Part shown: piece by piece, positions 11,571 to 60,209 of the stretch
Position numbering within the stretch: the first letter of the stretch is position 1
How the letters are laid out: every line of letters starts with the position of its first letter
Assembly: GCA_900315705.1 (NCBI GenBank)
Contig: ONAB01000009.1
Coordinates: forward strand, 1-64,000
DNA: 64,000 nucleotides
Reading direction: 5' to 3'
From: an uncultured Bacteroidales bacterium
Lineage (GTDB): Bacteria; Bacteroidota; Bacteroidia; Bacteroidales; WCHB1-69
Notes under the pieces: generated by a model
The model's database searches: none
Told to the model about the DNA's origin: nothing
Seen by the model: the letters and a program-made list of their open reading frames with translations, nothing else
Program-made: the position numbers and the translations under genes

Positions 11571-12689
11571 ATGATGAAAAAGATTCTCACCTTCACTATC
11601 TTAATGACGATTGTCCTGTTCGGGAACCTCTCCGCCCAAGTCCAGCACTTCACCTGGCAGGGTACGGAGCGCGAATACCTCGTGCGCACCCCGGCCAACC
11701 ATAACGGTACACTTCCTGTGCTGTTTTTCCTGCACGGTCTGGGTGGCAACGTCTCCAATTACGACCAAGAATTCAATTTTGCCCAGATTGCCGAGGAGTA
11801 TGACTGGATGATTGTGTTGCCGCAGGCCCTTGACCAAGGCATAGGCCCTATGTGGAACGCCGGTCTGGCCCCCAGCAGCATTGATGACTCCGGTTTCCTG
11901 ATGGCCCTCCTCGACTCGCTGACGGTGCAGTATCAGCTCGACACCGACAGCGTTTTCTTTTCGGGCATATCTATGGGCGGCTTTATGACGCATCGTATGG
12001 CCATCGAGCATGGTGACCGAATCGACGCGTGCGTGGCGGTCAGCGGACTGATAACCAGCGCGGATGCCGCCCAGACGCCCGTCGCGCCAGTCCGTATGCT
12101 CCACATCCACGGCACCAACGACAACGTGGTGGGTTACAACGGTTACTCCACTGCGTTCAGTATGAACCTCGGCCTCGGGGTGGATGCTATAATGGACTAT
12201 TGGCAGAATGCCAACGGTTGCACGGGCGAACCTGCTATAGACACGCTTCCCGACCTCAAGGACGACGGACTGCGTTTCATCCGTTATACCTACAACTGCG
12301 GCACGGACCTGCAACTGCTTAAGGTGGTGAACGGCGTGCACGACTGGTATCATAGTTCCGCCCAATATGATGTTGGCTACAAGGAGGCTCTCTACGAGTT
12401 CTGCTCGGGACGCAGCCTTCCGTCAAGTGTTGCCGTCCGCGAGATGGAGCAATTACGGGTGTGGCCGAACCCCACGAACGGCGTCCTCAACATACAATTT
12501 ACCCATCAAAATTCATCCGTCCCCGAAATTAAGGTTTACGATGTGTATGGGAAAGTGGTGGATGTGGTAGAGACGCAGCGCGCCGCGTCTCTGCAGACCG
12601 TGCAGATCAATTTGTCCCGTTACCCAGACGGTGTCTATTTTGTGCAAGCGGGCAACAGCGCAGTAACGAAGGTTGTGGTGGCGCGTTAA
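11571..12689 (+). CDS. Secreted esterase (PHB depolymerase/LpqC-like) with T9SS sorting domain
   Basis: 372 residues: signal peptide (MMKKILTFTILMTIVLFGNL...), an alpha/beta-hydrolase domain and a T9SS C-terminal sorting domain (from about 285, VWPNPTNGVLNIQFT, with VYDVYGKVV and YPDGVYFVQAG). Catalytic triad candidates are Ser134 in GISMGG, Asp184 in HGTNDNVV and His257 in NGVHDW; the oxyanion loop is FFLHGLGGN. The fold and motifs match feruloyl-esterase/polyhydroxybutyrate-depolymerase relatives; the actual ester is unknown. The sorting domain has an in-frame insertion, residues 333-342 (VETQRAASLQ), encoded exactly by a GTAGAGACG palindrome (12567-12596). The insert falls between two strands, so export may survive. 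Confidence 0.87.
   Translation: MMKKILTFTILMTIVLFGNLSAQVQHFTWQGTEREYLVRTPANHNGTLPVLFFLHGLGGNVSNYDQEFNFAQIAEEYDWMIVLPQALDQGIGPMWNAGLAPSSIDDSGFLMALLDSLTVQYQLDTDSVFFSGISMGGFMTHRMAIEHGDRIDACVAVSGLITSADAAQTPVAPVRMLHIHGTNDNVVGYNGYSTAFSMNLGLGVDAIMDYWQNANGCTGEPAIDTLPDLKDDGLRFIRYTYNCGTDLQLLKVVNGVHDWYHSSAQYDVGYKEALYEFCSGRSLPSSVAVREMEQLRVWPNPTNGVLNIQFTHQNSSVPEIKVYDVYGKVVDVVETQRAASLQTVQINLSRYPDGVYFVQAGNSAVTKVVVAR
12567..12596 (+). repeat. GTAGAGACG palindromic element, copy A (inside the esterase gene)
   Basis: GTAGAGACGC pairs with GCGTCTCTGC across a short GC-rich centre (10 bp with one G-T wobble). It is read in frame as VETQRAASLQ. Confidence 0.75.
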
Positions 12690-12694
12690 TATTT

Positions 12695-12756
12695 TCCCGC
12701 AGATTTCGCAGATTAGCGCAGAAAAAAATCTGCGTCAGTCTGCGAGTTCTGCGGGA
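12695..12756. repeat. CGCAGATT long inverted repeat between convergent genes
   Basis: A near-perfect hairpin of about 28-bp arms starts TCCCGCAGATTTCGCAGATT on the left and ends TCTGCGAGTTCTGCGGGA on the right, with an A-rich loop. Each arm holds three degenerate CGCAGA units. It sits between the convergent esterase gene and the gene at 12773 and may act as a two-way transcription block as well as being a dispersed repeat. Confidence 0.75.
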
Positions 12757-12772
12757 GATATCCAATAGACTT

Positions 12773-13516
12773 TTATATCATCATCTTTTCCAATCTTGTC
12801 CAGTCGATTTTCGGATGAGGTTTGAAGAAACGGTCGTGCCTTTCGGAACGATACAACATGGCATCTTCGGGGTTGATGTTCCATTGCGTCTCGTCTTCGG
12901 TGATGGCGACCAGCAGATCCTCCGCCCCGTAACAGAGATACAGCCATTCTCCGATGTGCTTTTTGAACAGCTCCGGCTTGCACCAGACCTGCACCGTACA
13001 GGAGCAAAAGCATCCGATATCGTCCACCAGGTCGCAAAGTACCTGGCGTGATACGCCGCACGGGAAGGTGATGGCATAACTGCCTTCGCCGCGTTTCCAG
13101 AGCAGCGGCAGATTTTCAAGTGTACCCTCGTCCTCCGCCATATTGTCCAGAATCAGTGTCTCCAGATGCTCGTAGTCGGTCACGTTGTCCAGCAGGATGA
13201 GGGTGGTGGTGTCTATGGGATTGCGAAAACGTTCCTCTTGAATGGCGGCAAGTTGTCTGAGCTGTTCTTTTTTGAGCATTTCATCTTCCAATGCCCTCTT
13301 GCGCATAATTCGATTATAAAACAAAGCGGCATAGAGGAAATACAGGGAGCCTCCGACCATCATCAGTATGGCCAGATAGGCAAAGAAACCGGGCGACCAG
13401 GAGGGGGCAGACAGGAGCTCCTTTATGAAGAGAAACGGCACCAAAGCGAAAATCAATGCTGTAAGGAAGCATGTCAGTCTGCCTATTATATTTCCAATTT
13501 TATCCAGAAACTGCAT
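12773..13516 (-). CDS. Membrane-anchored protein of unknown function (247 aa)
   Basis: Two N-terminal hydrophobic helices (LTCFLTALIFALVPFLFIKE near residues 14-33 and FFAYLAILMMVGGSLYFLYA near 42-65) are followed by a charged coiled segment (MRKRALEDEMLKKEQLRQLA) and a soluble domain of about 150 residues with several cysteines (CGVSRQVLCDLVDDIGCFCSC). I do not recognise the domain. An in-frame ATG lies upstream at 13537, but the -7 box of this gene overlaps it (13535-13542), so MQFLDKIG at 13516 is the better start. It is divergent from the TonB_C/OmpA-like gene. Confidence 0.7.
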   Translation of the reverse strand: MQFLDKIGNIIGRLTCFLTALIFALVPFLFIKELLSAPSWSPGFFAYLAILMMVGGSLYFLYAALFYNRIMRKRALEDEMLKKEQLRQLAAIQEERFRNPIDTTTLILLDNVTDYEHLETLILDNMAEDEGTLENLPLLWKRGEGSYAITFPCGVSRQVLCDLVDDIGCFCSCTVQVWCKPELFKKHIGEWLYLCYGAEDLLVAITEDETQWNINPEDAMLYRSERHDRFFKPHPKIDWTRLEKMMI

Positions 13517-13534
13517 TTCAATATTATTTCGATG

Positions 13535-13542
13535 CAAAAATA
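13535..13542 (-). promoter_or_regulatory. -7 box for the membrane-protein gene
   Basis: TATTTTTG on the minus strand, 18 bp before the ATG at 13516. It overlaps the longer candidate start and so rules it out. Confidence 0.6.
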
Positions 13543-13577
13543 TTCTTTTTTTCTTTTTGTAACTTTTTTTATTTTCA

Positions 13578-13606
13578 TTTGTAGAAACAAAAAAATTGTA
13601 TATTTG
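13578..13606 (+). promoter_or_regulatory. Promoter of the TonB_C/OmpA-like gene
   Basis: TTTG (13578-13581), 17 bp, TATATTTG (13599-13606), 31 bp before the start codon. One of the best consensus promoters in the window. Confidence 0.75.
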
Positions 13607-13637
13607 CAGCCTCGAAAAAAATTAAAATTATTAATAT

Positions 13638-14720
13638 ATGAAAAGAGTGTACAATTTTATCGTCTTAGTCTTGGTGCTTGCCTTATCTGGTGCAGTATCA
13701 ACGACTTATGCACAGTGTAACAACGATGTGATGCTCTATGGCGGCAAGGCTTCCGGATCTTGCAAGAAGGGCATTGCCGTGGCATATGGCCAGCACGAAA
13801 CGCCGACAGCCGCTCTTAGCCTGCCTCATTTCAAGGGTGGCAACAGAGCAATGTGCCGTTACATCAACAAAACGAAAGTCTATCCGATCAACCTGAAGAG
13901 CCAGCGCGCCGAGGGTACCGCCGTGGTCCAAGCCAAGGTTTTGGCCGACAGCACCATCACGGATGTCGAGCTGGTTACCAGCTCCGGTTACAAGGAGATG
14001 GATGACGAAGCCATCCGCGTGGTCAAGTCCTTCCCGAAGATGTGTCCGGCTACCCAAAGCTGCACCGCTCAGGATATGATTATCCAAATCCCCATCAAGT
14101 TCTCTATGGAAGAGGAAGAGGCCAAGGAGAAACTGGCAGAGCAGAAGAAACTCGTCAGAAACATTGGACCTATCACCCTCTATTTCGAGAACGACCGTCC
14201 GGATCCCAGAACCAAGAACGACTACACCAGCACGGAGTACAAGGGCCTGTATGATGCCTATATGGATAAGCAGAACACCTATGTTACCGAGGCAGGTAAA
14301 GGTCTTGCTGGCAACGCTAAGTCCCAGGCCGAGAATGAGGTCAGAACCTTCTTCAACGACTCCATCGCCACGGGTTACGACCGCCTCCAGAAGCTGACCA
14401 ACACGATTGTTGACCTGCTCGAAAGCGGCAGCGACGTCTCCTTCACCATCAGCGGTTTCGCCAGCCCGCTCAGCAACAATGACTACAATATGCACCTCTC
14501 CTCCCGTCGTATCGAAAGCGTGCTCAACTATATGAAGCAAGCCAATGGCGGCAAACTTGCCCCGTACATCACCGGTGAGAAGTCCGGTCTTACGATCACC
14601 AAGAACCCCAACGGTGAGGTTAAACGTACTGAATCCTCCCAGGCACAACGCGTTACCGTTTATGGTCTCGACGCCGCCAAGGACAGAAGAATCGTCATCC
14701 ACGACCTTATCGTTTACTAA
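13638..14720 (+). CDS. Envelope protein combining a TonB C-terminal-like and an OmpA-like domain
   Basis: 360 residues. A signal peptide (cleaved after about AQ at residue 26) leads to a TonB_C-type domain (about 70-158: PINLKSQRAEGTAVVQAKVL, DVELVTSSGYKEMDDEAIRV, FPKMCPA, IPIKF). A coiled link with EEEEAKEKLAEQKK follows, then an OmpA-like peptidoglycan-binding region (TLYFENDRPDP near 176; FTISGFASPLSNNDYNMHLS then SSRRIESVLNYMK at about 270-305). TonB_C domains normally contact outer-membrane receptors and OmpA domains bind the cell wall, so the protein may bridge the two. There is no N-terminal TonB membrane anchor. It has its own promoter and terminator, so it is monocistronic. Confidence 0.78.
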   Translation: MKRVYNFIVLVLVLALSGAVSTTYAQCNNDVMLYGGKASGSCKKGIAVAYGQHETPTAALSLPHFKGGNRAMCRYINKTKVYPINLKSQRAEGTAVVQAKVLADSTITDVELVTSSGYKEMDDEAIRVVKSFPKMCPATQSCTAQDMIIQIPIKFSMEEEEAKEKLAEQKKLVRNIGPITLYFENDRPDPRTKNDYTSTEYKGLYDAYMDKQNTYVTEAGKGLAGNAKSQAENEVRTFFNDSIATGYDRLQKLTNTIVDLLESGSDVSFTISGFASPLSNNDYNMHLSSRRIESVLNYMKQANGGKLAPYITGEKSGLTITKNPNGEVKRTESSQAQRVTVYGLDAAKDRRIVIHDLIVY

Positions 14721-14744
14721 AGAGTTGCATTTTGAGATATACCG

Positions 14745-14777
14745 AAAGGGACCTTCGTCAGAAGGTTCCTTTTTTTT
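14745..14777 (+). terminator. Rho-independent terminator
   Basis: AAAGGGACCTTC, loop GTCA, GAAGGTTCCTTT and a T-run, 25 bp after the preceding stop. Confidence 0.85.
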
Positions 14778-14830
14778 GCTGTCTGGAAAAAGCAAAGCGC
14801 GTGTGTCTCGGGGTTTTGATGTGGGATTTT

Positions 14831-15074
14831 AGACTTAAGACTTAAGACTTTCCTTGAGCAGTCCCGAAGGGACAAAATTCTAGTAACCCCGCACAAGCGA
14901 CGAAGGAGCGCAGTGTGGGGCGTGTCGCACAAGGCGAAGCCGCAGTGTGGGGCGTGTCGCACAAGCGACCGAAGGGAGCGCAGTGTGGGGCGTGTCGCAC
15001 AAAGCGAAGCCGCAGTCTGGGGTGTGTCGCACAAGCGGGTGCTCGGATGTGTCGCACAGGCGATAGGGGAGTGC
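14831..15074 (+). repeat. Expanded GAA-loop hairpin repeat array
   Basis: Tandem GACTTAA units (14831-14848) precede a lead-in like that at 1371 and the hairpin GTCCC-GAA-GGGAC (14861-14873). Six contiguous units then each begin GCACAAG/GCACAA and mostly end GTGTGGGGCGTGTC: 14891-14926, 14927-14958, 14959-14996, 14997-15028, 15029-15053 and 15054-15074 (lengths 36, 32, 38, 32, 25, 21). Most fold by pairing CACA with TGTG around a GC-GAA-GC core. There are no spacers between units. I see no protein-coding potential on either strand. The array lies between a terminator and the tRNA terminator. Confidence 0.8.
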
Positions 15075-15084
15075 GGCAATAGAC

Positions 15085-15116
15085 AAAAAAAACGGGGAGC
15101 AGTGCTCTCCGTTTTT
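15085..15116 (-). terminator. Terminator of tRNA-Met
   Basis: AACGGGGAGCA / loop / CTCTCCGTT with A- and T-runs on both sides. It directly follows the tRNA on the minus strand. Confidence 0.75.
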
Positions 15117-15117
15117 G

Positions 15118-15191
15118 TGGTCCCACAAGGGCTCGAACCTTGGACCCTCTGATTATGAGTCAGATGCTCTAACCAACTGAGCTATGGGACC
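15118..15191 (-). tRNA. tRNA-Met (anticodon CAT)
   Basis: A full cloverleaf on the minus strand: acceptor GGTCCCA/TGGGACC, D-arm GCTC..GAGC, anticodon stem TCTGA/TCAGA with loop CTCATAA, T-arm CAAGG-TTCGAGC-CCTTG and discriminator A. CCA is not encoded. A CAT anticodon can also belong to lysidine-modified tRNA-Ile2; the arms look like elongator tRNA-Met. A TATTTTTG box at 15221-15228 is its likely promoter. Confidence 0.9.
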
Positions 15192-15220
15192 CGTTTGCAA
15201 CGCAAACTTTTATGAGGCGG

Positions 15221-15228
15221 CAAAAATA
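15221..15228 (-). promoter_or_regulatory. -7 box for tRNA-Met
   Basis: TATTTTTG on the minus strand, about 30 bp upstream of the tRNA 5' end. Confidence 0.6.
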
Positions 15229-15257
15229 CGAAATTTTCGTTTATTTGCCCAGTGTTT

Positions 15258-17126
15258 TTACTCTATAGTTTTCTTTTTCTTGACGGGCTTCAAAGGCTCG
15301 TTACCAAAGGAGTAACTGACACCCACTAAGGCGTTGATGCCAAAGTTGTTGAAGTTGTAATAGGTGGAGGCGTATTGGCAACCTACATTGTTGACTTCAA
15401 AGAAGGCTGTCAGCTGCTTGGTGATCAGGTACTCGAAACCGAGGCCGAAGTTGAGGATGGGCTTCATCAAACGTTTGCCCTGCGAATCCTTTTGGAGGTC
15501 GTTGATTGCCTCGTAGGTGCGTATGTAGGTGTTACCCAACGAATCCACGGCAGTGACGGGCGACATAGCCCAGCGACCGAAGGCGATGTTGGCGTTGAGG
15601 TTGAAGATGAACTTCTCCTTGAGGATGTACTTGCCGTCGAAGCCGATGCCCCAACTGGGCTTGTACCACGGGTGCTCAATGTTTGTGAAATAGTAGCCCC
15701 AATAATTGGCGTTGAGGTTCAGATACAGGTGGTTGATGGCCTCCCAACTCAGGTTGGCGCACACGTTCAGGGTGCTCCCCTTGTCGGCGTACATTACGTC
15801 GAACTGGTTCTTGAGCAGACTGCGCGTGTCGAGTACATAGAAGGGGTAGTCCTTCACGTACGCGTAACGCGCGGAGATGTGGTAGTTGAGTTTCTTGACG
15901 AGGTTGCCCTTCACACCGCCGTAAATGCTGATCTGGGAGCGGGTGAACTTGAGACTGTCGAGCTGTGGCTTGACGTACGGGTTCTCGTAGAGCAGGTTCT
16001 TCAGGGAGTTGTATTCCGACTTGCCGTCCACGCCCACATAGACGCTCAGGATGCCGCGGATGAGACCCATCTGGAGTTCTGCGATAGGGTAAACGGGACA
16101 TTTGGCCTTGTTTTGGGCCACAATGACCGGCACGCCCACACCCACCAGCAAATGGTACTCCTTGATGGTGAAGTTCATCGTGGGACGGAATTCCACTTTA
16201 TAGCTGTTGTCGAGACGCGGCACCAAACGGCGCTCGCGACTGCCGATAAGCACAGAGTCGCCCCAATGGTTGTGGTAGAAGTCGAAATCAATGTCCAACT
16301 GATAGTGCTGGTAGCCGGAAATCTTCAGGAAGCGGTCGTCGTATGCCATTATGGCGCGCAGACCGACGTTATGCTCCATATCTTTCCAGTAAGTGTGGAT
16401 GAAGTCGTATTTCAACTTCACATCTTCCTTGAACTTCTTGTCCTCGGTAGTGTAGTTGGAGCGGATGCCCACTTCAGCCTTCAGGTGGTGGAAACTGTTG
16501 CGGATGCTATCGCGGTACTCTTTCTCATAGTAGTATTGAGGGATGCCCCAGTTGCGGTTGTAGCCGTACAGGTTGGCCAGCTCGTGGTTGTAGCCGACCG
16601 AAGAGTAGAGAGTCTGGGTCCTGAAGAAACGGTTGAGGAAGAGGAGCAGGCGCGTGTCGCTCGTGGGGGCGTAGGCGTACTGTTTCTGCACTTTCCCGAT
16701 GGGGGCGGCCCAGGAGGAGAAGTGGTGGAAATTCAGCCCGTACGAATATTTCGTGTTCTGGCAGTTGTGCATTGCCAACTCCGCCAACGGGGTGATAGGG
16801 TAGCCGAACCCCACCTTGATGTAGTTGCGGTAAAGCACCTCCTTCACCTCGGGGTCCAGTTTGCTGACCTTGATCTCGGACGGGTTGAAAGTGATCTCCG
16901 GTTTCTGCGGACTGATTTCGTAGGAGTAGGTCACGTGCTCCTGCAGGGTGTCGATGATGACGGCCTGGTCGTTGATCTTGGTGGCATTGCTCAGTTTGGG
17001 CACATATTGGATGAGCAAGTGAGCGGAATCCACTACCTGTGCCTGCAACGCGAGGGAACAGAAAAGGATGCAAGCGACTGCGACAATACGTTTGATGCTA
17101 TACATATTATTATTTGTTGTATTCAT
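15258..17126 (-). CDS. Outer-membrane beta-barrel protein linked to the TPR gene
   Basis: 622 residues with a signal sequence after a polar leader (MNTTNNNMYSIKRIVAVACI...). A 100-residue periplasmic part is followed by many amphipathic strands rich in Tyr, Phe and Asn (for example YSYGLNFHHFSSWAA, YKVEFRPTMNFTIKEYHLLV, FGINALVGVSYSFGN), the pattern of a large outer-membrane barrel. There is no plug or TonB box that I can see. It begins 12 bp after the stop of the 1,000-residue TPR gene, so both form one operon. Exact function unknown; a barrel with a periplasmic TPR partner suggests transport or assembly across the outer membrane. Confidence 0.72.
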   Translation of the reverse strand: MNTTNNNMYSIKRIVAVACILFCSLALQAQVVDSAHLLIQYVPKLSNATKINDQAVIIDTLQEHVTYSYEISPQKPEITFNPSEIKVSKLDPEVKEVLYRNYIKVGFGYPITPLAELAMHNCQNTKYSYGLNFHHFSSWAAPIGKVQKQYAYAPTSDTRLLLFLNRFFRTQTLYSSVGYNHELANLYGYNRNWGIPQYYYEKEYRDSIRNSFHHLKAEVGIRSNYTTEDKKFKEDVKLKYDFIHTYWKDMEHNVGLRAIMAYDDRFLKISGYQHYQLDIDFDFYHNHWGDSVLIGSRERRLVPRLDNSYKVEFRPTMNFTIKEYHLLVGVGVPVIVAQNKAKCPVYPIAELQMGLIRGILSVYVGVDGKSEYNSLKNLLYENPYVKPQLDSLKFTRSQISIYGGVKGNLVKKLNYHISARYAYVKDYPFYVLDTRSLLKNQFDVMYADKGSTLNVCANLSWEAINHLYLNLNANYWGYYFTNIEHPWYKPSWGIGFDGKYILKEKFIFNLNANIAFGRWAMSPVTAVDSLGNTYIRTYEAINDLQKDSQGKRLMKPILNFGLGFEYLITKQLTAFFEVNNVGCQYASTYYNFNNFGINALVGVSYSFGNEPLKPVKKKKTIE

Positions 17127-17138
17127 ATCTCTGTCGTG

Positions 17139-20100
17139 TTATTCGTTTTTGGAATTTTCGGCGGCTTCGAGAGCTTCTACCTCTGCAATCTTTTCTTGGG
17201 CCATCTTCACGAGGTCTTGGCCGTCGTAGTTGTCCACGATGCTCTGGTAGGTGTGCTTGGCCTGGAAATAGTTGCCCTTGGCCTTGTAGAGGTCGCCATA
17301 GAGGATGAAGGTGCGGGCGTACCAATATTCGGAGGAGTAGTTGCTGCCGAGGATGCTCTGGATTTGGTTTTCACAATCCTTGAGTTCGTGATCATAGTTC
17401 AGCGCGATGTCAGCGAGCTGGTAGGCGGCCTCTGCGCAGAGGTCATTGGTGCCCTTGTTGGCCAGGCGGCCGTAGTAACGTTTGGCCTCGCTGATCTGGT
17501 TGAGTTCCTTGGCGGAGTTGCCGGCGATGAGCAGAGCCTCGCTGAGCAGTTCGCCATCGGTCGGGTTGGCCTCGATGATGTTGACAGAGGCGGTGAGCGC
17601 ATTCTGGTACTCTTTCAGGAAGTAGGCGCTGCGCATAGCCCCGTTGTTGGCGTAGAGCACCTCGTCGTCATCGGTGGTGCTTTCGGCCAGCTTGTTGAAA
17701 TAGCGCAGGGCCTTGGCGTACTCTTTCTTGTTGTAGAGAATTGAGGAGGCCTTGTGCAAGGCGGTGATGTTGTAGTCCGTCTTGTAACTCTTGATGATGG
17801 CTTCGTAATCGACGAGTGCGTCGTCATACTGCCGTTGGCCGTATTGGCATTCGGCCTTGTAGAAATGCGCTTTCGCGACAAATGAGCCGTTGGGGAATTG
17901 ACGGAGGTAGTCCTGGCAGGCGCGCACAGCCCCGTCGCAGTCGCCGCGGTTGTATTTGGTCTCGGCGGCCCGGAAGGAGATGGAATCCTGACGGTCGGCG
18001 GAGATGTTCATATTCTTGGTCCGGATATAGTCGAAGAACTCACTGGTGTTGCCCTCTTCGGTGTAGATGGTCTCCAGGTTGGTGAGGGCGTCCTTGGCCT
18101 CTTGCGATCCGGGATAGGTCTCCACCACGTATTTGTAGGTGGAGATGGCCATCGCGGTGTTGCCGCTGTTCATATAGGCCTGTGCCAGACGGGTGTGAGC
18201 TTGGCGCACGTGCTGGCTCTTCGGGTGCTGCTGGATGAAGGCCTTGTAGGCGTAGATGGCCTGGTCGAAATTGTTCTGGGTGTGGTAGGTGACCGCCAGG
18301 TCATAATCGGCATCGTCGCGGTAGGTGGATCTGGGGTAGTTGCTGTTGAGGCGTTCCAGCGCGGCCACCTTCTTGCTGTTGTTCTTCTGATAACCGTAGC
18401 ATTTAGCTAACTGATAGATGGCGTAGTCGGCGTTGGCCTCGCCGAGGTTTTCACACTGGCTGTAATATTTGATGGCGTTCGTAAGATCTTGCTGCATAAA
18501 GTAGCAGTCGCCGAGACGGGCCGTGGCGTCGGCCTGCTTGGCTTTGTCTTCGTTTTTGCCATATTTGGAGATGTAGTTCTTGAAATAGTTGGTGGCGTCG
18601 CGGTAGCGCTTGATTTTCAAGGCTGCATAGCCGAGGGTGTATTGCGAGTTGACGTAGTTCTCGTTGTAGGTGGCGTTGTTCGTCTTCTGGTAGGTCTGCA
18701 GCGTGTAGTAGGCGTCCTGGTACTTCTCGTTCCGGTACTGCGTTTCGCCTTTCCAATAGAGCGCGTTGAGATGAATGTCCTTGTCGATGGGAGCACTCAG
18801 GGTCTTGTCAAGAGTCTGCAGGGCCTCCTTGTAATTGCGGTTGTTGATGAGCTCCAAAGAACGGTAGTAGGTGCAGCGCTGGTAGGCCTTGAGGATGCTC
18901 GGCGACTTGCTGCTCAGCTTCTCGATGGAGTTGATGGCGGCCTGGTAATTCTTGGTGGAAAGATAGAGCTTGGAGAGGTAGGAGGAGACCTCTTCGCTGC
19001 GGGAGGAGTGCGGGTAACGGTTGCTGTACTCCTGCAACGCTTCGATGCCGTTGTTGAACGGACTGGTAGAGGTCTGGCACTGGAGTTTGGCGTAGTTGTA
19101 GAGAGCGTCCTCCTGGATGTCGGCGTTGAAGTCGAGCTTGGATGCCTCCTTGAAGGCCTGGATGGCCAGGTTCTCCTGCTTGTTGCGACGGTAGCAGTCG
19201 CCGATGAGATAGTAGCTGTTCTGGGTCATCGCGTCGGGACGCTTGTCATTGACGCACTTGGAGAAGCAGTTGACGGCATCTTCGTAGCGGGCGTTGCGGT
19301 AGTAGGTGAAGCCGGCGGCGAAATAGTCGTTCCGGTCGAGGAAGATCTTGTCGGAGCCGATGATCTTGTCGAAGTTGTTGGCAGCCACCTCGTACTGGTT
19401 GAGGGCGTATTGGGAAGCGGCCACGCAACGCACCACCTGCAGTTGTGCGGGGTCGTTGTAGTTAGTGACCTTCGGGGCCACCTTCAGCACATTCTCGTAC
19501 TCGCCCTGCTTGAAGTAAATCTGTGTCAGGAAGGCCGGCACCTCTTTACTGTAGTCGGGTTCGTCCTTCAGCAGGAGGAAATCCTCCAGCGCGGCCTCAT
19601 ACTGCCCGTCCTGGTAGGCCATATAGGCCAGATAATAGATGGAACGCAGTTTGTAGGGGCCTGACGACTCGCGGGCCTGCTTGAACAGCGCCTTGGCCTT
19701 GTCGAATTCGTTGATCATAAAGTAGGAGTAGCCCTTCTTGAACTGATACTCGGCCACGTTCTCGGGCTGTATCTCGTTCTCATAGATGAGCTCGTATTGC
19801 GCAAGCACCTTCTTCCACTGCTTGCGACTGAAGTAGTGGCGACCTAAGTAGTAGCGGGCCTCCGGCACGTATGAGTGTACGGGGTATCGGTCGATGAACC
19901 CTTGCAGGAGGTAGGCTGCGTCGGGGTTGTCAAGCTTCTCGGCACAAACACCCTGGTAGAAATAGGAGTTCGTCCTCAAATCCTGCTGCATATCCGTGGT
20001 GTGCTCAAAGACGTATTTGAAATACTGCTGCGCGGAACCATATTTCTCGTTGGAGAAAAGGTCCATTGCCGTCTTGAACTCGTACTGCGGGGATTTGAAA

Positions 20101-20183: not shown

Positions 20184-20222
20184 ATAAAAAGCTTTTTTTA
20201 TTCGCAATGGGTAATAAACGGA

Positions 20223-20230: not shown

Positions 20231-20322
20231 GAAAAAAATTATGCTTTTATTTTTTCTTCTTCTTTTATTTGTAAACAAGGCAGTTTTAATAAAAAAAGAG
20301 ACTTTTATATGGTTTTTCCGTG

Positions 20323-25687: not shown

Positions 25688-27043
25688 ATGCGCTCACAGA
25701 CCTTTTGGGAAAAGACATATCACAAGAACATCGCCAAGATGATTGGCGTCAACCTCCGTTATGTGGGCGACCGCGCGGTGGCAGAGGACCTTGCGCACGA
25801 CGCGATTCTCAAAGCCATCGAGAAATCGGGCAGCTACCGCCACCTCGGCAGTTTCGAGGGATGGCTGATGCGGCTCAACCTGAACAACACGCTGGACTAT
25901 CTGCGCCGTCAACCGCAATTTTTGTCCATTGACAACGCTCCTCATCCCGTTATGAACGAGACGTGCCACGACGAGCCCCCGCAACCCGACGAGTTCACCG
26001 AATCGGAAATTCTCGATGCCATTTGCGCCCTGCCCGAACGCCAACGGGTGGTTTTCAATCTCTACGTCTTTGAAAAACAAACCCATAAGACAATCGCCGA
26101 CAAACTGCAGATTGGCATACGGAGTTCAAAACGATATTTGTCGGAAGCACGAACACAACTTCAGCAATTTCTGAAAGATAAACAAACAACCAAAAAATCA
26201 GGCATTATGATTATACTGATGATGATTACGCGTCGAAGTCACGCCGTTGATCGTCTTTGTCTTGCCAAACTGAGCAAGTTGGCAGTGGCCCCTGTCACAC
26301 CCTCCCCATTGGCATCGCTGGATTGGGCTGCCGTTCCGAAGTCCTCCCTATGGCTCACGCTCTCTGCCGCCAAAGCCCCCGCCATCGCCACGGGTGTGGT
26401 TGCCACTGTTGTGGCTGGATCCGCCATTGCATATCAGGCCCGACCTGACAATCCTGCAGCCGTGCCACAAGAACCTGATCCTGTAGAGACGGGGCACGCC
26501 CCGTCTCTACAGGCCGACACAATTCCTGTTGTAGTTGCTTCTCCACAGGCCGGCACAATTCCCGTTGTAGTTGTGTCTTCACCGAATGATACAATTCCTG
26601 TTCCTGCTGTAGAGACGCGCCGTGGCGCGTCTTCGCAATACGCTGACCAGCAAGTCAAAGGAACCGAATCATCTGTTTCACCATTGCCCGAAACGCCCGT
26701 CGCGACCTCTTCCCATCATAGCCTGAAGAAGTTCGAGCGCAACGGCTACTACGGTCTCCAAGATGAAAAAGGATACATTGTGGTATATCCGAAATATTCG
26801 GACATAAAGCCGTTCGACGAATACCGGAGCGGGTGGGCAATGGTGGAGATATTCGGGTTCAAGGGTTTTGTGGACTCCTCCGGCAAAGATGTGGTCCCCG
26901 CACAATACGACGAGGTCGGCAGATTCGGCTTCTATCACGATGGCTGGGCATTGGTGCGCAAGGGCAACTTCTATGGTTTTATCGACTTGTCAGGGAAAGA
27001 AGTCGTGCCTGTGACACACAAAAAGCGCGACCTTATCCCGTAG
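25688..27043 (+). CDS. ECF sigma factor fused to a transmembrane segment and WG repeats
   Basis: 451 residues in one uninterrupted frame. Residues 1-76 are sigma region 2 (VAEDLAHDAILKAIEKSGSY; SFEGWLMRLNLNNTLDYLRR). Residues 101-165 are region 4 (ILDAICALPERQRVVFNLYV; THKTIADKLQIGIRSSKRYL). A single hydrophobic helix lies near 229-250 (KAPAIATGVVATVVAGSAIA). Then comes a Pro/Val-rich linker (250-345) with three 12-residue repeats and two GTAGAGACG palindromes read in frame. Residues 352-445 hold WG-type repeats (YYGLQDEKGYIVVYPKYSDI; GFVDSSGKDVVPAQYDEV; YGFIDLSGKEVVP). The layout predicts a cytoplasmic sigma domain tethered to the membrane with a periplasmic sensor. No anti-sigma gene is adjacent. 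Confidence 0.85.
   Translation: MRSQTFWEKTYHKNIAKMIGVNLRYVGDRAVAEDLAHDAILKAIEKSGSYRHLGSFEGWLMRLNLNNTLDYLRRQPQFLSIDNAPHPVMNETCHDEPPQPDEFTESEILDAICALPERQRVVFNLYVFEKQTHKTIADKLQIGIRSSKRYLSEARTQLQQFLKDKQTTKKSGIMIILMMITRRSHAVDRLCLAKLSKLAVAPVTPSPLASLDWAAVPKSSLWLTLSAAKAPAIATGVVATVVAGSAIAYQARPDNPAAVPQEPDPVETGHAPSLQADTIPVVVASPQAGTIPVVVVSSPNDTIPVPAVETRRGASSQYADQQVKGTESSVSPLPETPVATSSHHSLKKFERNGYYGLQDEKGYIVVYPKYSDIKPFDEYRSGWAMVEIFGFKGFVDSSGKDVVPAQYDEVGRFGFYHDGWALVRKGNFYGFIDLSGKEVVPVTHKKRDLIP
26481..26512 (+). repeat. GTAGAGACG palindromic element, copy B (inside the sigma-WG gene)
   Basis: Perfect 15-bp arms CTGTAGAGACGGGGC and GCCCCGTCTCTACAG around AC. Read in frame as PVETGHAPSLQ, residues 265-275. 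Confidence 0.85.
26513..26608 (+). repeat. 36-bp tandem repeat in the sigma-WG linker
   Basis: Two and a half units with a 36-bp period (the AATTCC core recurs at 26521, 26557 and 26593) encode DTIPVVVASPQA, GTIPVVVVSSPN, DTIPVPAVE. It lies exactly between palindromes B and C. Confidence 0.75.
26608..26637 (+). repeat. GTAGAGACG palindromic element, copy C (decayed)
   Basis: AGACGCGCC and GGCGCGTCT form the core arms around GT. The outer right arm has drifted (CTTCGC instead of CTCTAC). Read as AVETRRGASS in the same gene. Confidence 0.65.
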
Positions 27044-28058: not shown

Positions 28059-32012
<3,954 letters not shown>

Positions 32013-53295: not shown

Positions 53296-53330
53296 AATTG
53301 AGAATTAAGAATTGAGAATTGAGAATTAAT
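53289..53330 (+). repeat. AATTGAGAATT short tandem repeat after recQ
   Basis: Four to five imperfect copies of GAATTGAGAATT/GAATTAAGAATT beginning within the recQ stop region. The reverse-complement unit recurs at 56866-56895. Confidence 0.7.
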
Positions 53331-53354
53331 AAAAATGATGTTATTTATATTTAT

Positions 53355-54152: not shown

Positions 54153-54751
54153 GCCGCATAACGAAGGAAGGGACCCGTGAGGACAAGGGCATCCGGTCTT
54201 GTTGGACTGTGGTGCTGTTGTGCGTCGTGCTCGCCTTGATAGGGGTGGCGATTGCGATAGGGATCGTGCGGTATAAACGCAATCCGCAGACTGTTGTGGA
54301 GAAGCCGCGTTCCGCACTTCTCGACTCCTTGCACGTGTTTCCGCCCCTTGAGTTTGCGGACTCGCTCTATCAGTCACGGGTGTTGATGTCCTATGATGAC
54401 GAATCGCCCCGCGATGTGTATTACTATGAAATTGACAGCGTGGGCAATACCACACAGAATGTGGTCCACGAGAAACACTTTTATCCGAGTCATCAGGAGT
54501 ATTTTGAAGGAAATGTCCACAATGGTAAACGCGAGGGTTTGTGGTACGCCTATCATCCCAACGGCAATGTGCAGACGATGGCCTATTATGTGAACGGATT
54601 GGAGGAGGGCCGCTACACGGTCTATCACCCCAATGGTGCTGTCTATTATACCGGAGAATACCATCAGGGCAAGTGTGTGGGCAAGTGGCTGTTTTACGAT
54701 GAGAATGAACAGCTTGTGAGTGAGAAAAACTATGACGAGCTGAATGACTAG
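54149..54751 (+). CDS. Membrane-anchored MORN-repeat protein
   Basis: 200 residues: a short N-terminal cytoplasmic part, one transmembrane helix (about 16-37, TVVLLCVVLALIGVAIAIGI), a linker with cysteine-free charged stretch, and three MORN-type repeats at the C-terminal end. The repeats read YFEGNVHNGKREGLWYAYHP, NGNVQTMAYYVNGLEEGRYT, and VYYTGEYHQGKCVGKWLFYD. Such repeats (also called YwqK-type) are common in secreted Bacteroidota proteins; their role is unknown. It starts inside the last codons of the OmpH-like gene (ATGA overlap), so the two products are made together and may form one envelope complex. Confidence 0.8.
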   Translation: MSRITKEGTREDKGIRSCWTVVLLCVVLALIGVAIAIGIVRYKRNPQTVVEKPRSALLDSLHVFPPLEFADSLYQSRVLMSYDDESPRDVYYYEIDSVGNTTQNVVHEKHFYPSHQEYFEGNVHNGKREGLWYAYHPNGNVQTMAYYVNGLEEGRYTVYHPNGAVYYTGEYHQGKCVGKWLFYDENEQLVSEKNYDELND

Positions 54752-54790
54752 AAACAATTAATTATTAACTAAAAACAAAAACAAGAAAAT

Positions 54791-56167
54791 ATGGAATTAC
54801 CTTTTGCAGAAGCGTGGAAAATCAAGATGATCGAACCCATCAAGAAATCCACCAGAGAAGAAAGAGAAAAATGGCTTGAAGAAGCCCACCAGAACATTTT
54901 TATGTTGAAGAGCGATTATGTGTATATCGACCTCTTGACGGACTCCGGCACCGGCGCAATGAGCGACCGCCAGTGGAGTGCGATGATGATGGGCGATGAG
55001 AGCTACGGCGGCGCCCGCTCGTTTTTCAATATGAAGAACACCATTACGGAACTTACCGGTTTCAAATTCGTCATCCCCACCCACCAGGGCCGTGCTGCTG
55101 AGAACGTGCTGTTCAGCTATCTGGTGAAACCGGGTATGGTGGTGCCGGGCAATGCCCACTTCGACACCACGAAGGGCCACATTGAGAGCCGCAAGGCTTT
55201 CGCCATCGACGTGACCGTTCCTGAGGCATATGACACCCAGCTTGAAGTCCCGTTCAAGGGTAATGTCAGCCTGGAGAAACTGGAGAAAGTGCTCATCGAG
55301 AACAAGGGCAACGTGCCCTTTATGGTGCTGACTGTTACCAACAACACCGTGGGTGGCCAGCCCGTCAGTATGAAGAATATCCGCGAGACTTGTGAGCTTT
55401 GCCACAAGTACGGCGTGCCCGTCAATATTGACAGCGCCCGTTTCATCGAGAATGCTTACTTCATCAAGACCCGCGAAGAGGGCTATGCCGACAAGAGCCT
55501 CCGCGAGATCGCCTTGGAGATGTTCAGCTATGCCGACAGTATGACGATGAGCGCCAAGAAGGACGGCCTTGTCAATATGGGCGGTTTCATCGCCACTAAT
55601 AAAGAGGACTGGTACGAAGGTGCCAAGCTCTTCTGCATCCCCTTCGAGGGCTTCCTGACTTACGGCGGTATGAACGGCCGTGATATGGACGCTTTGGCCG
55701 TTGGCCTGAAGGAGAACATCGAGTTCGATATGGTGGAAACCCGTATCAAACAGGTCCAATATCTGGCCGACAAACTCGACGAGTACGGCATTCCTTATCA
55801 GCGTCCTGCCGGTGGCCACGCCATCTTCGTGGATGCCGACAAGGTTCTGACCAACATCCCGAAGGAGGAGTTCCCGGCCCAGACGCTCACGTGCGAGCTC
55901 TATCTCGAAGCCGGCATCCGCGCCTGCGAAATCGGCTATGTGCTGGCCGACCGCGACCCGGTGACGCGCGAGAACCGCTTCGGTGGCAACGACTTCGTGC
56001 GCCTCTGCATCCCGCGCCGCGTCTATACCAACAACCATATGGACGTGATTGCCGCTGCCCTCAAGAATGTCTATGACCGTCGCGATACCATCAAGCGCGG
56101 TCTGGAAATCACTTGGGAGGCCGAGCTGATGCGCCACTTCACCTGCCAGTTCAAGAGACTGAAATAA
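54791..56167 (+). CDS. tnaA: Tryptophanase
   Basis: 458 residues of the beta-eliminating PLP family shared by tryptophanase and tyrosine phenol-lyase. The PLP lysine is Lys257 in MSAKKDGLVNMGG. Two positions that separate the enzymes favour tryptophanase: Asp125 in NAHFDTTKGH (Thr in tyrosine phenol-lyase) and His449 in LMRHFT (Phe there). VNIDSARFIENAYFIKTREE and FPAQTLTCELYLEAGIRACE are shared motifs. It breaks tryptophan into indole, pyruvate and ammonia. There is no visible tnaC-type leader peptide or permease gene beside it. Ends at a strong terminator. Confidence 0.9.
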   Translation: MELPFAEAWKIKMIEPIKKSTREEREKWLEEAHQNIFMLKSDYVYIDLLTDSGTGAMSDRQWSAMMMGDESYGGARSFFNMKNTITELTGFKFVIPTHQGRAAENVLFSYLVKPGMVVPGNAHFDTTKGHIESRKAFAIDVTVPEAYDTQLEVPFKGNVSLEKLEKVLIENKGNVPFMVLTVTNNTVGGQPVSMKNIRETCELCHKYGVPVNIDSARFIENAYFIKTREEGYADKSLREIALEMFSYADSMTMSAKKDGLVNMGGFIATNKEDWYEGAKLFCIPFEGFLTYGGMNGRDMDALAVGLKENIEFDMVETRIKQVQYLADKLDEYGIPYQRPAGGHAIFVDADKVLTNIPKEEFPAQTLTCELYLEAGIRACEIGYVLADRDPVTRENRFGGNDFVRLCIPRRVYTNNHMDVIAAALKNVYDRRDTIKRGLEITWEAELMRHFTCQFKRLK

Positions 56168-56191
56168 TACTATACCCGCCCGTTTGGGCAG

Positions 56192-56224
56192 AACGGCTTG
56201 CCGAACCGCGGCAAGCCGTTTTTT
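56192..56224 (+). terminator. Terminator of tnaA
   Basis: AACGGCTTGCCG, loop AACCG, CGGCAAGCCGTT and a T-run. Confidence 0.92.
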
Positions 56225-56253
56225 AATTTGTAAAATTTAAAAACAAAGCGATA

Positions 56254-56841
56254 ATGCTGATAGTGGATGATGTGTTGGTTTCCGATGAGTTGATAGACAA
56301 ATGCTTTTGCTGCGATTTGGCCGCCTGCAAAGGAATGTGCTGTGTGGAGGGCGACGCGGGGGCGCCGCTGCGTCCCGAAGAGGTGGGCGATCTGAGCGAA
56401 TACTATCCTGTTTTCCGGAAGTATATGTCCGACGAGGGCATCGCGGTGGTGGAAGCCGCCGACGAGCCGGTGGTGCTCAACGGCTGGGGCGAGTTCGAGA
56501 CGCCGCTACTCGGGAATGGAAAAGATTGTGTGTTCGTCTGTCGCGAGGGCGATATGGCAATGTGCGCCATCGAGAAGGCTTTCCTCAATGGGGAAATCCC
56601 CTTCCGGAAGCCCATATCCTGCTATCTGTATCCCATCCGGGCCAGCAAGGTGGGCAAGTACACGGCCCTGAATTTCCATCATTGGGATATTTGCCAGTGC
56701 GCCCGCACAAAAGGGGAGGAGCTGAAACTGCCCGCCTACCGTTTTCTGAAGGAGCCGTTGGAGCGTGCCTTCGGCCACGAATGGTACGAGAAACTGTGCG
56801 ATCTTGTGGAGAACGAAGCCCCACAACACCCTGGTTGTTGA
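56254..56841 (+). CDS. DUF3109 family cysteine-rich protein
   Basis: 195 residues without signal peptide. The N-terminal CFCCDLAACKGMCCVEGDAG, the central CVFVCREGDMAMCAIEKAFL, then PISCYLYPIRASKVGKYTAL and HHWDICQCAR make up the spaced cysteines of DUF3109, a relative of YkgJ-type zinc- or iron-sulfur-binding proteins. Its function is unknown. About nine cysteines are placed to hold one or two metal clusters. It stands alone between the tnaA terminator and the convergent TonB-type gene. Confidence 0.88.
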   Translation: MLIVDDVLVSDELIDKCFCCDLAACKGMCCVEGDAGAPLRPEEVGDLSEYYPVFRKYMSDEGIAVVEAADEPVVLNGWGEFETPLLGNGKDCVFVCREGDMAMCAIEKAFLNGEIPFRKPISCYLYPIRASKVGKYTALNFHHWDICQCARTKGEELKLPAYRFLKEPLERAFGHEWYEKLCDLVENEAPQHPGC

Positions 56842-56865
56842 TTTCTAAGACGCACGCCCGTGCCT

Positions 56866-56895
56866 CTCAATTCTCAATTCTCAATTCTCAATTCC
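56866..56895. repeat. GAATTGA short tandem repeat at the 3' end of the TonB-type gene
   Basis: Three to four copies of TCTCAAT (plus strand). On the minus strand the repeat supplies the last two codons and the stop of the gene at 56881 (GGA ATT GAG AAT TGA). Confidence 0.75.
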
Positions 56896-59334
56896 TTGTC
56901 CGCCGCCTTGGGCTTGCGCCTGGGCGCCTTCCAACTCCATCTTGCCGAATTTGAAGGTGATGCCGGCACGGATGCTGCGGCCCATCCAGCTGCTCCGCGT
57001 GGTGCTGCTGAGCGTATAGTACGGATTGTTGACGTCAGTGCCCATCTTGTTCCAGTTGAAGATGTCGTGCACATCCAGATGCACGGAGATGCGGCGTTTC
57101 CAGAACTCGGCGCGCAGGCCTGCATCGATGCTGTAGCGCGGACGCGTGATTGTGAACATACTCACGCTCTTGGAGCTGTAATTGGCCGAGGCGTTCACCT
57201 CCAACACCTTCCACAATTTGGCCCAGAAGTTCAACCGGAAGCTGTAACCTAAATTGTCCACCGTATAGGGCGTTTCCTCTTTACGGAACTGGAACGAGGA
57301 CTTCATATAGTACATATTGGCATAGAAACGGATGTTCATAAAGGCTTTGAGCCGGTACATCACGTTGAGTTCGGCGCCCGTGTTGAGCGATTTGCCCGCA
57401 TTGACCGGCATCGTAAACGTAACGATGCGCCCGAAGAAGGGGCTGTAGGCTACATCCGATTGCCGGCTGAACTCGTCCTTGCTGTTCTTGAACCAGGCGT
57501 TGATGCCAATGTTGCCGAACTTGTTGATGTATTTGCTCCAGCCCGCCTCTATGGAGTTGGTGAATGTCTGCCGCAAATCGGGGTTGCCGGTGGCGTACCC
57601 ATCCTCGCCGTAACTGATACGGGTGCTCAAGTCATCGCCGTCCGGATTGTTTACACGGCGGGTGTAGCTGAGCTTGAAGTTGTGCATATTCTTGGTGCGG
57701 TAACTCAGGTGCAGGGAGGGATAGAACCCCAAGTATCCTTTGTGTACATCGTATTGAGGGTCGTTGAGAATAAGGAGATTGTAGATCTCGTACTCGGTGC
57801 GCAGACCGCCTTTAAGCGTGAAGCCGCCGAAGCGGTGCTGCAACGTGGCGTAGGCGTCCACACTGCCGTCGCGGACACGCACATCCTTGGAACGGATCTC
57901 ATCCATTACATAGTCGCCGGTAGAGAACACCAACGTGTCGTACCGTTCATAATTCAAGCCTGGATCATATCCGCCCGACACGCCCAATTCTATTTCCCCG
58001 TTTTTATGATAAGGGATGGTATAGTCCACGGAGGCACTCAATCCCAACGAACGGTAGTGGTTCTCCAGCTTCTGCTTTTTGTCTAGATTGTCCAGAAAAA
58101 GGTAATCACGGAAGGCATCACCTTTTTGCTTTCTGCCCCACGTCCAAAAACTCACATCAGCGCTGATCTTGTGGCCCTTGCTGTTGAACTTGTGCTCGTA
58201 CCACATTCCACCATAGCCGCCGCCACCGACCGTGCTTTGTGCCTGGTCATTGAAGAAGGAGCGGTCGCTGGGATTGTAGATGTATTCCCTGTAATAGGTG
58301 GAATCCAAATAAGTGTAGCCGCCAAAACTGGGATAGGTGCCGGCCCAGAAGTAGATGCTGTTCATCGAGTCGGGCGTGTAGGAGCCGTTGATGTAAAGGC
58401 CGAAACTGTGATCCGGTTGTTGGACTTGGTTGATACTGTGAAAAGTGGAAGAGGTGTCCCCTCCGTCGGTCAGTATCGTGGAGAACGACTCGCTGTTGTT
58501 CTTGTTGATGCTGTACGAGTAGTTGAGGTAGGTGCTGATGGAGAACTTCTCGTTGGCATAGACATAAGAAAGGAAAGGCGTGACGCTGGGTGTGGAGGAA
58601 CCGCGCACGCCGAAGCTGATGAAACTGTTCTTCTTGATTTTGGAGGTGGTGATGATGTTGATGATGCCGCCGCTGCCTTGGGCGCTGTAGCGGGCCGACG
58701 GGTTGGTGATGACCTCGATCTTCTCGATGCTGCCGGCGGGCATCTGCTGGATGAACTGCTTGAGCGCCTCGGCGTTCATATTGGAGGGCTTGTTGTTGAT
58801 CCAAATCTCCACGGAAGAGACGCCGCGCAGGGTGACGTTGCCCTCCACGTCCACCTCCACGCCGGGGGCGTTCTGCAAGGCATCCGCCGCCGAGCCCGAC
58901 TGTATGGTGGGGTCCTCGGCCACGTTGTAGAGCGTCTTCTCGCCATCCACCATATAGACGGGTTTCTCCCCAATAATCTGCACCTCCTGCAGGTCGGTGC
59001 TGTTCTTGTGCATCGGGATGTCGCCTAAATCGATGGTCTTGGAATTGCCGCCGACAGTGACCGGGATGATCAACCGCTCATAGCCGACCAGTGTGGCTAC
59101 AAACTGGTATTCGCCGTCCAGAACGTTCGATATCTGGAACTTGCCTTGCGCGTCGGACAGGGATTTGCCGACCATCTGCGCGGTGGAGTCCGGGGTCAGC
59201 AGCATTATGGTGGCAAACTGCACCCTCTCATTGTTGAGGGAATCCACCATTGTGCCTGTAAGGTTGTAACGACTCTGAGCGGAAAGAAGATTTGCCAGCG
59301 TGATCAGTAGGAGAGAGTAGAACAGTTTCTTCAT
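56881..59334 (-). CDS. TonB-dependent receptor-like outer-membrane barrel with CarboxypepD_reg domain
   Basis: 817 residues. Signal peptide (MKKLFYSLLLITLANLLSAQ), a carboxypeptidase-regulatory-like beta-sandwich (about 24-110, GTMVDSLNNERVQFATIMLL; DGEYQFVATLVGYERLIIPV), a plug domain (about 115-235, MVDGEKTLYNVAEDPTIQSG; NAPGVEVDVEGNVTLRGVSS; SARYSAQGSGGIINIITTS) and a 22-strand-type barrel. This is the 'outer membrane beta-barrel family protein' group (OMP_b-brl_3), smaller than SusC. The C-terminal end GQGIEN is read from a short tandem repeat, so the usual final aromatic residue is missing. No SusD-type gene is adjacent. Substrate unknown. Confidence 0.9.
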   Translation of the reverse strand: MKKLFYSLLLITLANLLSAQSRYNLTGTMVDSLNNERVQFATIMLLTPDSTAQMVGKSLSDAQGKFQISNVLDGEYQFVATLVGYERLIIPVTVGGNSKTIDLGDIPMHKNSTDLQEVQIIGEKPVYMVDGEKTLYNVAEDPTIQSGSAADALQNAPGVEVDVEGNVTLRGVSSVEIWINNKPSNMNAEALKQFIQQMPAGSIEKIEVITNPSARYSAQGSGGIINIITTSKIKKNSFISFGVRGSSTPSVTPFLSYVYANEKFSISTYLNYSYSINKNNSESFSTILTDGGDTSSTFHSINQVQQPDHSFGLYINGSYTPDSMNSIYFWAGTYPSFGGYTYLDSTYYREYIYNPSDRSFFNDQAQSTVGGGGYGGMWYEHKFNSKGHKISADVSFWTWGRKQKGDAFRDYLFLDNLDKKQKLENHYRSLGLSASVDYTIPYHKNGEIELGVSGGYDPGLNYERYDTLVFSTGDYVMDEIRSKDVRVRDGSVDAYATLQHRFGGFTLKGGLRTEYEIYNLLILNDPQYDVHKGYLGFYPSLHLSYRTKNMHNFKLSYTRRVNNPDGDDLSTRISYGEDGYATGNPDLRQTFTNSIEAGWSKYINKFGNIGINAWFKNSKDEFSRQSDVAYSPFFGRIVTFTMPVNAGKSLNTGAELNVMYRLKAFMNIRFYANMYYMKSSFQFRKEETPYTVDNLGYSFRLNFWAKLWKVLEVNASANYSSKSVSMFTITRPRYSIDAGLRAEFWKRRISVHLDVHDIFNWNKMGTDVNNPYYTLSSTTRSSWMGRSIRAGITFKFGKMELEGAQAQAQGGGQGIEN

Positions 59335-59564
59335 AAAAAACGCGTTTTATAGCAATGCTTGTTATTAACGTATATATGACGATTTAATTGTAAAAGGTGC
59401 CAATATTTGTGTTATAGTGTATTTATTTGTAAATAAAGGCGTTGTGTTAATTTTTCATAAAAAAACATTCCTAATAAACTTTTTTGTATTTTTGCAATCA
59501 GTTACAGACGTTTTTTTCTGTAAAACCTTTTGATGAATATAGTACTAATTTAAAATCTTTAGAA
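59335..59564. promoter_or_regulatory. Divergent AT-rich intergenic region
   Basis: 230 bp between the TonB-type gene (minus) and the 59565 gene (plus). A TATTTTTG box at 59487-59494 faces the plus-strand gene and gives a leader of about 65 bp. I find no clear -7 box for the minus-strand gene. Confidence 0.5.
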
Positions 59565-60125
59565 ATGAAAAAATTATTTTTGACACTTGCACTTGGCTTG
59601 CTCTGTATGGCAGGATTCTCCCAATTCACCTATGAAGACGGGACCTACACTTATCAGGATGAGTACACTACTGAAAATGCGCATCGTAAGGTGGTCAATC
59701 TCTTGAACACTTTCAACAATTCAACGCAATCTGCCAAAATCACGACCAATACGGATACCCTTGTCAAAGCTGAGGTTGTTATGAATGTGAAGGCTTCCTA
59801 CAATCCGTTTGCCGGTAGTTTTATCGAAAATTTCCAAATGGACGTCACCTTTAAGATTGATGGCGAACACGTGACCGTTTTGGGAGACAATTTCTACACC
59901 ATCAATGTTTACAGCGGTTATGGTTCCAACAAAGAGGTGAAATCTTATGATGAGAGAAAAGAGGAGTACGATAACGCCTCCCGCAAACTCAACAGCGGTA
60001 CCTTGAAGGGCAAGGACAAAAAGGACGCCAAGGAGATTGTGGAGGATTGGGAAGAGTCTTCCGCAGCTATCGATAAAGAGTTCAAGGCAAGATTCGTGAA
60101 CGCTCTGAAGAAGAAACTCCAATAA
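59565..60125 (+). CDS. Exported DUF4468-like protein
   Basis: 186 residues from MKKLFLTLALGLLCMAGFSQ (signal peptide); an earlier in-frame ATG at 59484 lies at the promoter and is unlikely. The mature chain has AHRKVVNLLNTFNNSTQSAK, TLVKAEVVMNVKASYNPFAG and a strand FQMDVTFKIDGEHVTVLGDN followed by a charged helical end. The pattern resembles DUF4468-type proteins (a TBP-like fold with 'a..w', 'v.g.g...' strands), but the match is only suggestive. Single gene ending in the palindromic terminator at 60167. Confidence 0.6.
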   Translation: MKKLFLTLALGLLCMAGFSQFTYEDGTYTYQDEYTTENAHRKVVNLLNTFNNSTQSAKITTNTDTLVKAEVVMNVKASYNPFAGSFIENFQMDVTFKIDGEHVTVLGDNFYTINVYSGYGSNKEVKSYDERKEEYDNASRKLNSGTLKGKDKKDAKEIVEDWEESSAAIDKEFKARFVNALKKKLQ

Positions 60126-60166
60126 GAAGGGGAAATCGGTCGTAACGACCTTACAACCTTATTGAT

Positions 60167-60209
60167 AAAAAAAGTAGAGACGTCACATTGTGGCGTCTCT
60201 ACTTTTTTT
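60167..60209. repeat. GTAGAGACG palindromic element, copy F, acting as a two-way terminator
   Basis: A 13-bp stem GTAGAGACGTCAC / GTGGCGTCTCTAC (60174-60186 with 60190-60202, one G-T pair, loop ATT), flanked by seven A and seven T. It is the only intergenic copy of the family in the window. It sits between convergent genes and has the form of a bidirectional Rho-independent terminator. A small GGTCG-TAA-CGACC hairpin precedes it. Confidence 0.82.

Follow-up and report, generated by a model that had tools for sequence, protein, structure and literature searches.

An element within genes of a Bacteroidales bacterium

What are the short palindromes that lie in frame inside unrelated genes of an uncultured Bacteroidales bacterium (lineage WCHB1-69)? 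The question arises from a stretch of 64,000 nucleotides (assembly GCA_900315705.1, ONAB01000009.1, positions 1 to 64,000), here called the window, taken from contig 31 of a draft genome of 3.0 Mb. The element has the form GTAGAGACG-N10/11-CGTCTCTAC, with a core of 28 bp when the spacer is N10 and of 29 bp when it is N11, and the window holds six copies, five of them intragenic and one intergenic. We conclude that these palindromes are very probably fully palindromic, double-foot repetitive extragenic palindromic (REP) sequences of the GTAG type, which are non-autonomous and served by a HuH-tyrosine transposase, the REP-associated tyrosine transposase (RAYT, or TnpAREP) of subclass 2.4 (RAYT group 4).

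The palindromes form a dispersed family of variable copy number. GTAGAGACG occurs eight times in the window against an expectation of 0.24. The first-pass annotation of the window had proposed the element from the six copies and held that finding no others in the genome would speak against it; a motif search of the genome and its relatives found 27 perfect copies (spacers 8-20) in the window genome with 0 in the reversed control, and 62 28-mers at three or fewer mismatches with 1 in the control. Perfect copies number 2 to 244 in 34 of 36 same-genus genomes, with none in the remaining two, and 1 to 22 in 8 of 24 genomes from other members of the order, while the reversed control gave 0 in all 61 genomes surveyed. 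A scan of named genomes returned at least 117 stretches, mostly from Bacteroidota and Nostocales with single matches elsewhere. By our own estimate some 15 matches would be expected by chance in that collection, so the single matches in odd phyla carry little weight.

Copies also occur in clusters (L and G numbers are our handles for loci and genomes). Steps of about 50 bp are found in the window genome, at L350 (1953/2001/2051) and L322 (2001/2050), and steps of about 80 bp in G045, at L230 (1471/1551, 2423/2503 and 2891/2969), and these clusters resemble REP doublets.

A RAYT gene carries the element in its flanks and in its own frame

A cognate transposase gene has the repeat both around it and within it. 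In the G045 cluster, a truncated gene bearing the motif MPNHIHGI has the palindrome at its end, and RAYT genes of the same type were found next to the element or enclosing it at L230 and, among the at least 117 public loci, at L033, L061, L090, L107 and L113. A phmmer search of the public loci, for which the usable queries were three of the short Y1 type, returned no transposase, and the RAYTs were found later by motif. When an alignment of four of these five public-locus genes was used to search for the family, it was present in 28 of 41 genus genomes. Thirty RAYT loci were fetched and 26 examined, with four weak partial matches left out.

The element was found inside the RAYT gene or no more than 400 bp from it at 19 of the 26 loci, and on both sides at 8. 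At 13 loci it lies inside the open reading frame, where the alignment places it between the HuH and Y motifs; in four of the 13 the gene is interrupted by an in-frame stop. Control loci with IS200-type short Y1 genes had any copy in only 3 of 33 cases (Fisher p 4e-7 against the RAYT loci). HxH, WQ, the Tyr, and the I and N of YIxNN are invariant in 13 stop-free RAYTs, and the best match among solved structures is TnpArep 4er8 (E 3.4e-8, 41 profile positions).

Sequence comparison suggests that the inner stem partly follows the RAYT type. Five RAYT loci with inner stem CAAAATTTTG, the type to which L256 belongs, are 80-97% identical, the RAYTs of L266 and L267 (both CGCCATGGCA) are 98% identical, and L258 has inner stem TTTCATGAAA. 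The closest to L061, which comes from a distant genome, are L253 and L255, all three having CACGGCCGTG, with identities of 50 and 46% compared with 35% or less to the others. Overall, RAYT identity was 0.745 within and 0.36 between inner types (permutation p 0.0002), values that are inflated by relatedness, include a mis-framed L033 and are descriptive only.

Related RAYTs have repeats of other kinds. A sister repeat with GTAGAGCCG arms surrounds the RAYTs of L261 (window genome, contig 16), L263-L265, L268 and L269, and five of these six genes have an in-frame stop. A second RAYT on contig 34 of the window genome (L140, 1444-2205, minus strand) holds another palindrome, around GGAGC.GACGCTTCCAGCGTC, inside its frame; two copies of this repeat are near the start of the frame and a third is at its end, read as GADASSV. 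The element-free relatives at L251, L257, L279 and L270-L273 contain in-frame repeats reading HTPQS, RGVCDT and NADAIN, which look like further REP families.

Window copies, host genes and folding

All six positions given by the first-pass annotation were confirmed, as were the five in-frame placements in genes. Arms without mismatch to GTAGAGACG and CGTCTCTAC are found at 26483..26510 (inner stem GGGCACGCCC), 29896..29923 (GGGCGCGCCC) and 60174..60202 (TCACATTGTGG), the last being the only 29-bp copy in the window. One mismatch is present at 12567..12594 (CAGCGCGCCG), two at 28252..28279 (CGATGCATCG) and three at 26609..26636 (CGCCGTGGCG), where the right arm has decayed. The intergenic copy at 60174 is preceded by A7 and followed by T7 (60167-60209); with these runs it lies about 20 bp beyond the stop of gene 60229-62301 (minus strand) and looks like a two-way terminator.

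Pfam agrees with the hosts that had been named, and all three genes are on the plus strand. The copy at 12567, read as VETQRAASLQ, falls within the type IX secretion system (T9SS) sorting tail (residues 330-402) of an esterase-like alpha/beta hydrolase (11472..12689). Copies 26483 (VETGHAPSLQ) and 26609 (VETRRGASSQ) share one linker of a sigma-70 type protein (25688..27043) that has a WG repeat besides Sigma70 regions 2 and 4. In the gene for a GH2 beta-galactosidase (28089..32012), 28252 is in frame and 29896 is in frame in a loop. Intragenic copies use only the two stop-free frames, the third having TAG, and the earlier explanation of the two-frame rule by this TAG stands. In-frame copies in other, unrelated genes include those in Vsr, GH97, a flavodoxin-like protein, a TPR protein and the T9SS tails of L320, L348 and L351, the tail of L351 scoring just under the Pfam cut-off. 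In T9SS sorting tails the copies at window 12567, L320 4393, L348 2001 and L351 2145 occupy the identical loop after the 'DvyGk.V' strand.

Most window copies fold into hairpins. As single-stranded DNA, five of the six folded clearly better than shuffled sequences, with z-scores of -6.7, -5.1 and -10.1 for the copies with perfect arms (the last for 60174 including its A and T runs), -4.3 for 28252 and -2.7 for 26609. Copy 12567 did not fold clearly better than its shuffles (z -1.43; 19 of 200 equally good). Folding pairs GTAG with CTAC in the perfect 28-mers, and the inner bases are variable yet paired, with 84-97% pairing at five positions across 93 28-mers. Beyond a T/A bias adjoining the element, nothing was found in the flanks of 126 public copies.

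Copies avoid genes and occupy two reading frames

That five of six copies lie in genes is correct for the window but reflects window sampling and does not hold as a general rate. We took a census of 63 window-genome copies at listed positions, based on a gene caller, which scored 43 as intergenic, 10 as overlapping a gene edge and 10 as intragenic. For three of the 43, all in the window, a place inside a gene is established, which brings the intragenic total to 13 of 63, a lower bound because the gene caller missed those three; a stricter pass gave 11 of 63. Since the same gene caller assigns 75.8% (0.758) of the sequence as coding, genes are avoided.

The ten called intragenic copies fall 8 and 2 in the open frames and 0 in the TAG frame, and at nine copies the TAG of the element is the stop codon of the gene. 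In-frame residence looks like what selection left. Outside genes, 44 of 50 copies were placeable, of which 20 were in convergent, 20 in unidirectional and 4 in divergent gaps, an orientation bias with a chi-square p of 3e-5 relative to intergenic bases. GTAG REPs are likewise reported inside genes, as TAG stops and in 3′ positions (PMC3733652).

It is very improbable that the element is instead a selected RNA hairpin, a terminator or mRNA stabiliser, whose spread is secondary. Such a role would fit the preference for convergent over divergent gaps (20 vs 4) and the A7/T7 flanks of copy 60174, which resemble those of a two-way terminator, but paired A/T runs were present in only one of seven 29-mers examined and lacking in the six others, copy number ranges from 0 to 244 within one genus, and at least 13 of 63 copies are inside genes.

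Gain, loss and inner-stem change at orthologous sites

At orthologous sites the element is present in some species and absent from others. Aligning host proteins with their orthologues, as the first-pass annotation had proposed, identified insert-free orthologues: at site 29896 the element is absent from 29 of 29, which have a short KDAQGR-like loop, and the window gene is 6 codons (+18 nt) longer than all 29. At site 28252, 3 of 24 aligned orthologues have the element, G015 among them with a different inner stem, and there is no fixed gain, as some orthologues have loops of equal length without it. The earlier figure of about 10 residues per copy therefore describes the coding length of the element itself but not the net gain, which is 6 codons at 29896 and not fixed at 28252. 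In the sigma factor linker the inner stems of the copies differ among many orthologues, and a copy found in some is missing from others. At the sigma-factor locus (L207, L208, L215, L281 and L288), G010, G013 and G017 have 13-nt half-elements, GTAGAGACGCTTC or GTAGAGACGTTTC, in the place where G014 and G027 show a full copy.

We compared inner stems at 22 orthologous sites in 89 pairs whose flanks were identical at 42 or more of 50 positions. Differences per 10 bases were 0-2 in 69 pairs and 4-8 in 20 pairs, and never 3. At 5 of the 22 sites, one of which looks like decay, inner stems differed at four or more of 10 bases with conserved flanks, and at the other 17 they did not. This divergence of inner stems between conserved flanks is possibly new; among the papers listed by literature searches, none on the exchange of inner stems at such sites was noticed.

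One speculative and rather doubtful explanation is that REP sites act as exchange ports, where TnpAREP or strand transfer from REP to REP would swap the inner stem for that of another subtype and leave arms and flanks as they were, and the stems would be recognition tags of separate RAYT lineages competing for the same chromosomal sites, in genes as well. For window copy 28252 and several partners, no further example of the inner type turned up in the part of the genome that was sampled, which does not speak for exchange. Independent insertions at one and the same base, or rapid paired substitution, may also have produced the differing stems.

Relation to known repeats

Quentin et al. 2018 (PMC6006769) describe TnpAREP subclass 2.4, which occurs in Cyanobacteria, Bacteroidetes and other phyla; its REPs are of the double-foot kind and are also found in frame within the tnpAREP gene. 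Our element likewise has a GTAG foot at one end and the complementary foot at the other, stands around tnpAREP and in frame inside it between the HuH and Y motifs, and occurs in Bacteroidetes and Cyanobacteria. We place it in this known REP/RAYT class because the testable sequence features of subclass 2.4 were found. It differs from that class in that many copies are also in frame in unrelated genes, the arms are common across phyla with variable inner stems, and the inner stems differ between species at one site, the class being compared by description and not by consensus. Two earlier claims give way here: mobility and mechanism had been left without an answer and the in-frame element had been implied to be novel, whereas a cognate RAYT/TnpAREP gene has the palindrome both in its flanks and within it, and the arrangement fits the published double-foot class (PMC6006769). 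Among the papers listed by literature searches for the element sequence, none dealt with repeats, although a consensus printed in figures or supplements could be missed by such a search.

The GTAG-tagged REPs of Di Nocera et al. 2013 (PMC3733652) have an unpaired GTAG tag at one end. They share with our element short GTAG-ended hairpins, RAYT partners, intragenic copies, TAG stops and 3′ or convergent placement; in contrast, GTAG is paired here. The same paper lists Bacteroidetes for CGTC and not for GTAG repeats, and describes palindromes of Rickettsia conorii with a CGTC tag at one end and no transposase found with CGTC repeats.

The likeness to Rickettsia palindromic elements that had been noted before stands, in that both are in-frame palindromes in unrelated proteins. 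We nevertheless consider it very improbable that the element is the Bacteroidota equivalent of those elements (CGTC REPs) and has no transposase of its own. It would agree with this that copies stand in frame in unrelated genes, as they do in Rickettsia, and that CGTC repeats are reported from Bacteroidetes (PMC3733652), but the sequence differs, the ends are GTAG/CTAC, with GTAG at both, and not a CGTC tag, and a cognate RAYT is flanked by and contains the element, while the CGTC repeats are without a reported transposase in that source. The element is nearer to GTAG REPs than to the Rickettsia elements.

The window genome has five Y1_Tnp matches, namely four short Y1 genes (two were scanned, both IS200-type) and one RAYT with another repeat, and the element is not near any of the five. 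That the element is a miniature inverted-repeat transposable element, or the end hairpin of an ordinary IS200/IS605, moved by these short Y1 transposases is scarcely credible: the five matches and a correlation of Y1 number with copy number (rho 0.63, 37 genomes) would suit it, but we rejected the short IS200-type genes as mobiliser because so few of their loci have a copy (3/33) and copy number shows an equally good correlation with genome size (rho 0.71), and half-sites are not enriched at short-Y1 loci either (30 vs 35 in the reversed control).

Very small mobile repeats of cyanobacteria are reportedly the subject of Elhai et al. 2008, to judge by its title. Our palindrome also occurs in cyanobacteria, and these small dispersed repeats are likened to it by title alone.

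Weighing a RAYT-served REP

For other RAYT groups, cleavage at CT and strand transfer have been shown (PMC8266576, in part). By analogy with the in vitro behavior of those groups, the transposase would bind the single-stranded hairpin with its GTAG foot, and would likewise cut beside the hairpin and transfer it by strand transfer to another place. Copies that hit genes would be retained in loops or linkers, where they are read in either stop-free frame and change the net length by a multiple of three; if read in the third frame, the GTAG foot would terminate the protein with TAG.

Several results weigh against a RAYT-served REP. BLAST searches with 89 elements and their flanks, and with the separate flanks of 106 elements, gave no clean empty site or target duplication. 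The first-pass annotation had looked to empty sites differing by exactly one element, and the differences found were indel-like: +18, about +24 and +36 nt (the latter two counted by hand) and the 13-nt half-elements. Seven of the 26 RAYT loci are without the element, having a RAYT is no predictor of copy number (21 genomes with one, 16 lacking it, p 0.33), and no RAYT match reaches E 0.001 in G003, G026 and G014, which have 146, 100 and 98 copies. In the window genome itself, the gene of the element-linked RAYT family has an in-frame TAA (the assembly is 97.6% complete), and the repeats flanking this interrupted gene have GTAGAGCCG arms, not GTAGAGACG. The RAYTs score 56-58 bits with NCBIfam REP_Tyr_transpos, under the cut-off of 80. 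As to the link with inner stems, L259 and L260 both have GTGCATGCAC, yet L260 is equally close to L266 (58%) and L259 (57%), and L107 shares CGCCATGGCA with L266 and L267 at only 32% identity.

Significance

The assignment removes the claim of a new class of in-frame element and places the palindrome in the known REP/RAYT class. What is gained is numbers on REPs in coding DNA, where copies use two frames and sit in loops and linkers, or else supply TAG stops. For annotation, inserts reading VETxxxxSLQ or RDxxxxxVST are likely REP-coded peptides. A single genus that spans 0 to 244 copies, with several inner-stem types that have RAYTs of their own, offers a good opportunity to study how REPs spread, what determines the specificity of RAYTs, and whether resident copies are rewritten where they stand.

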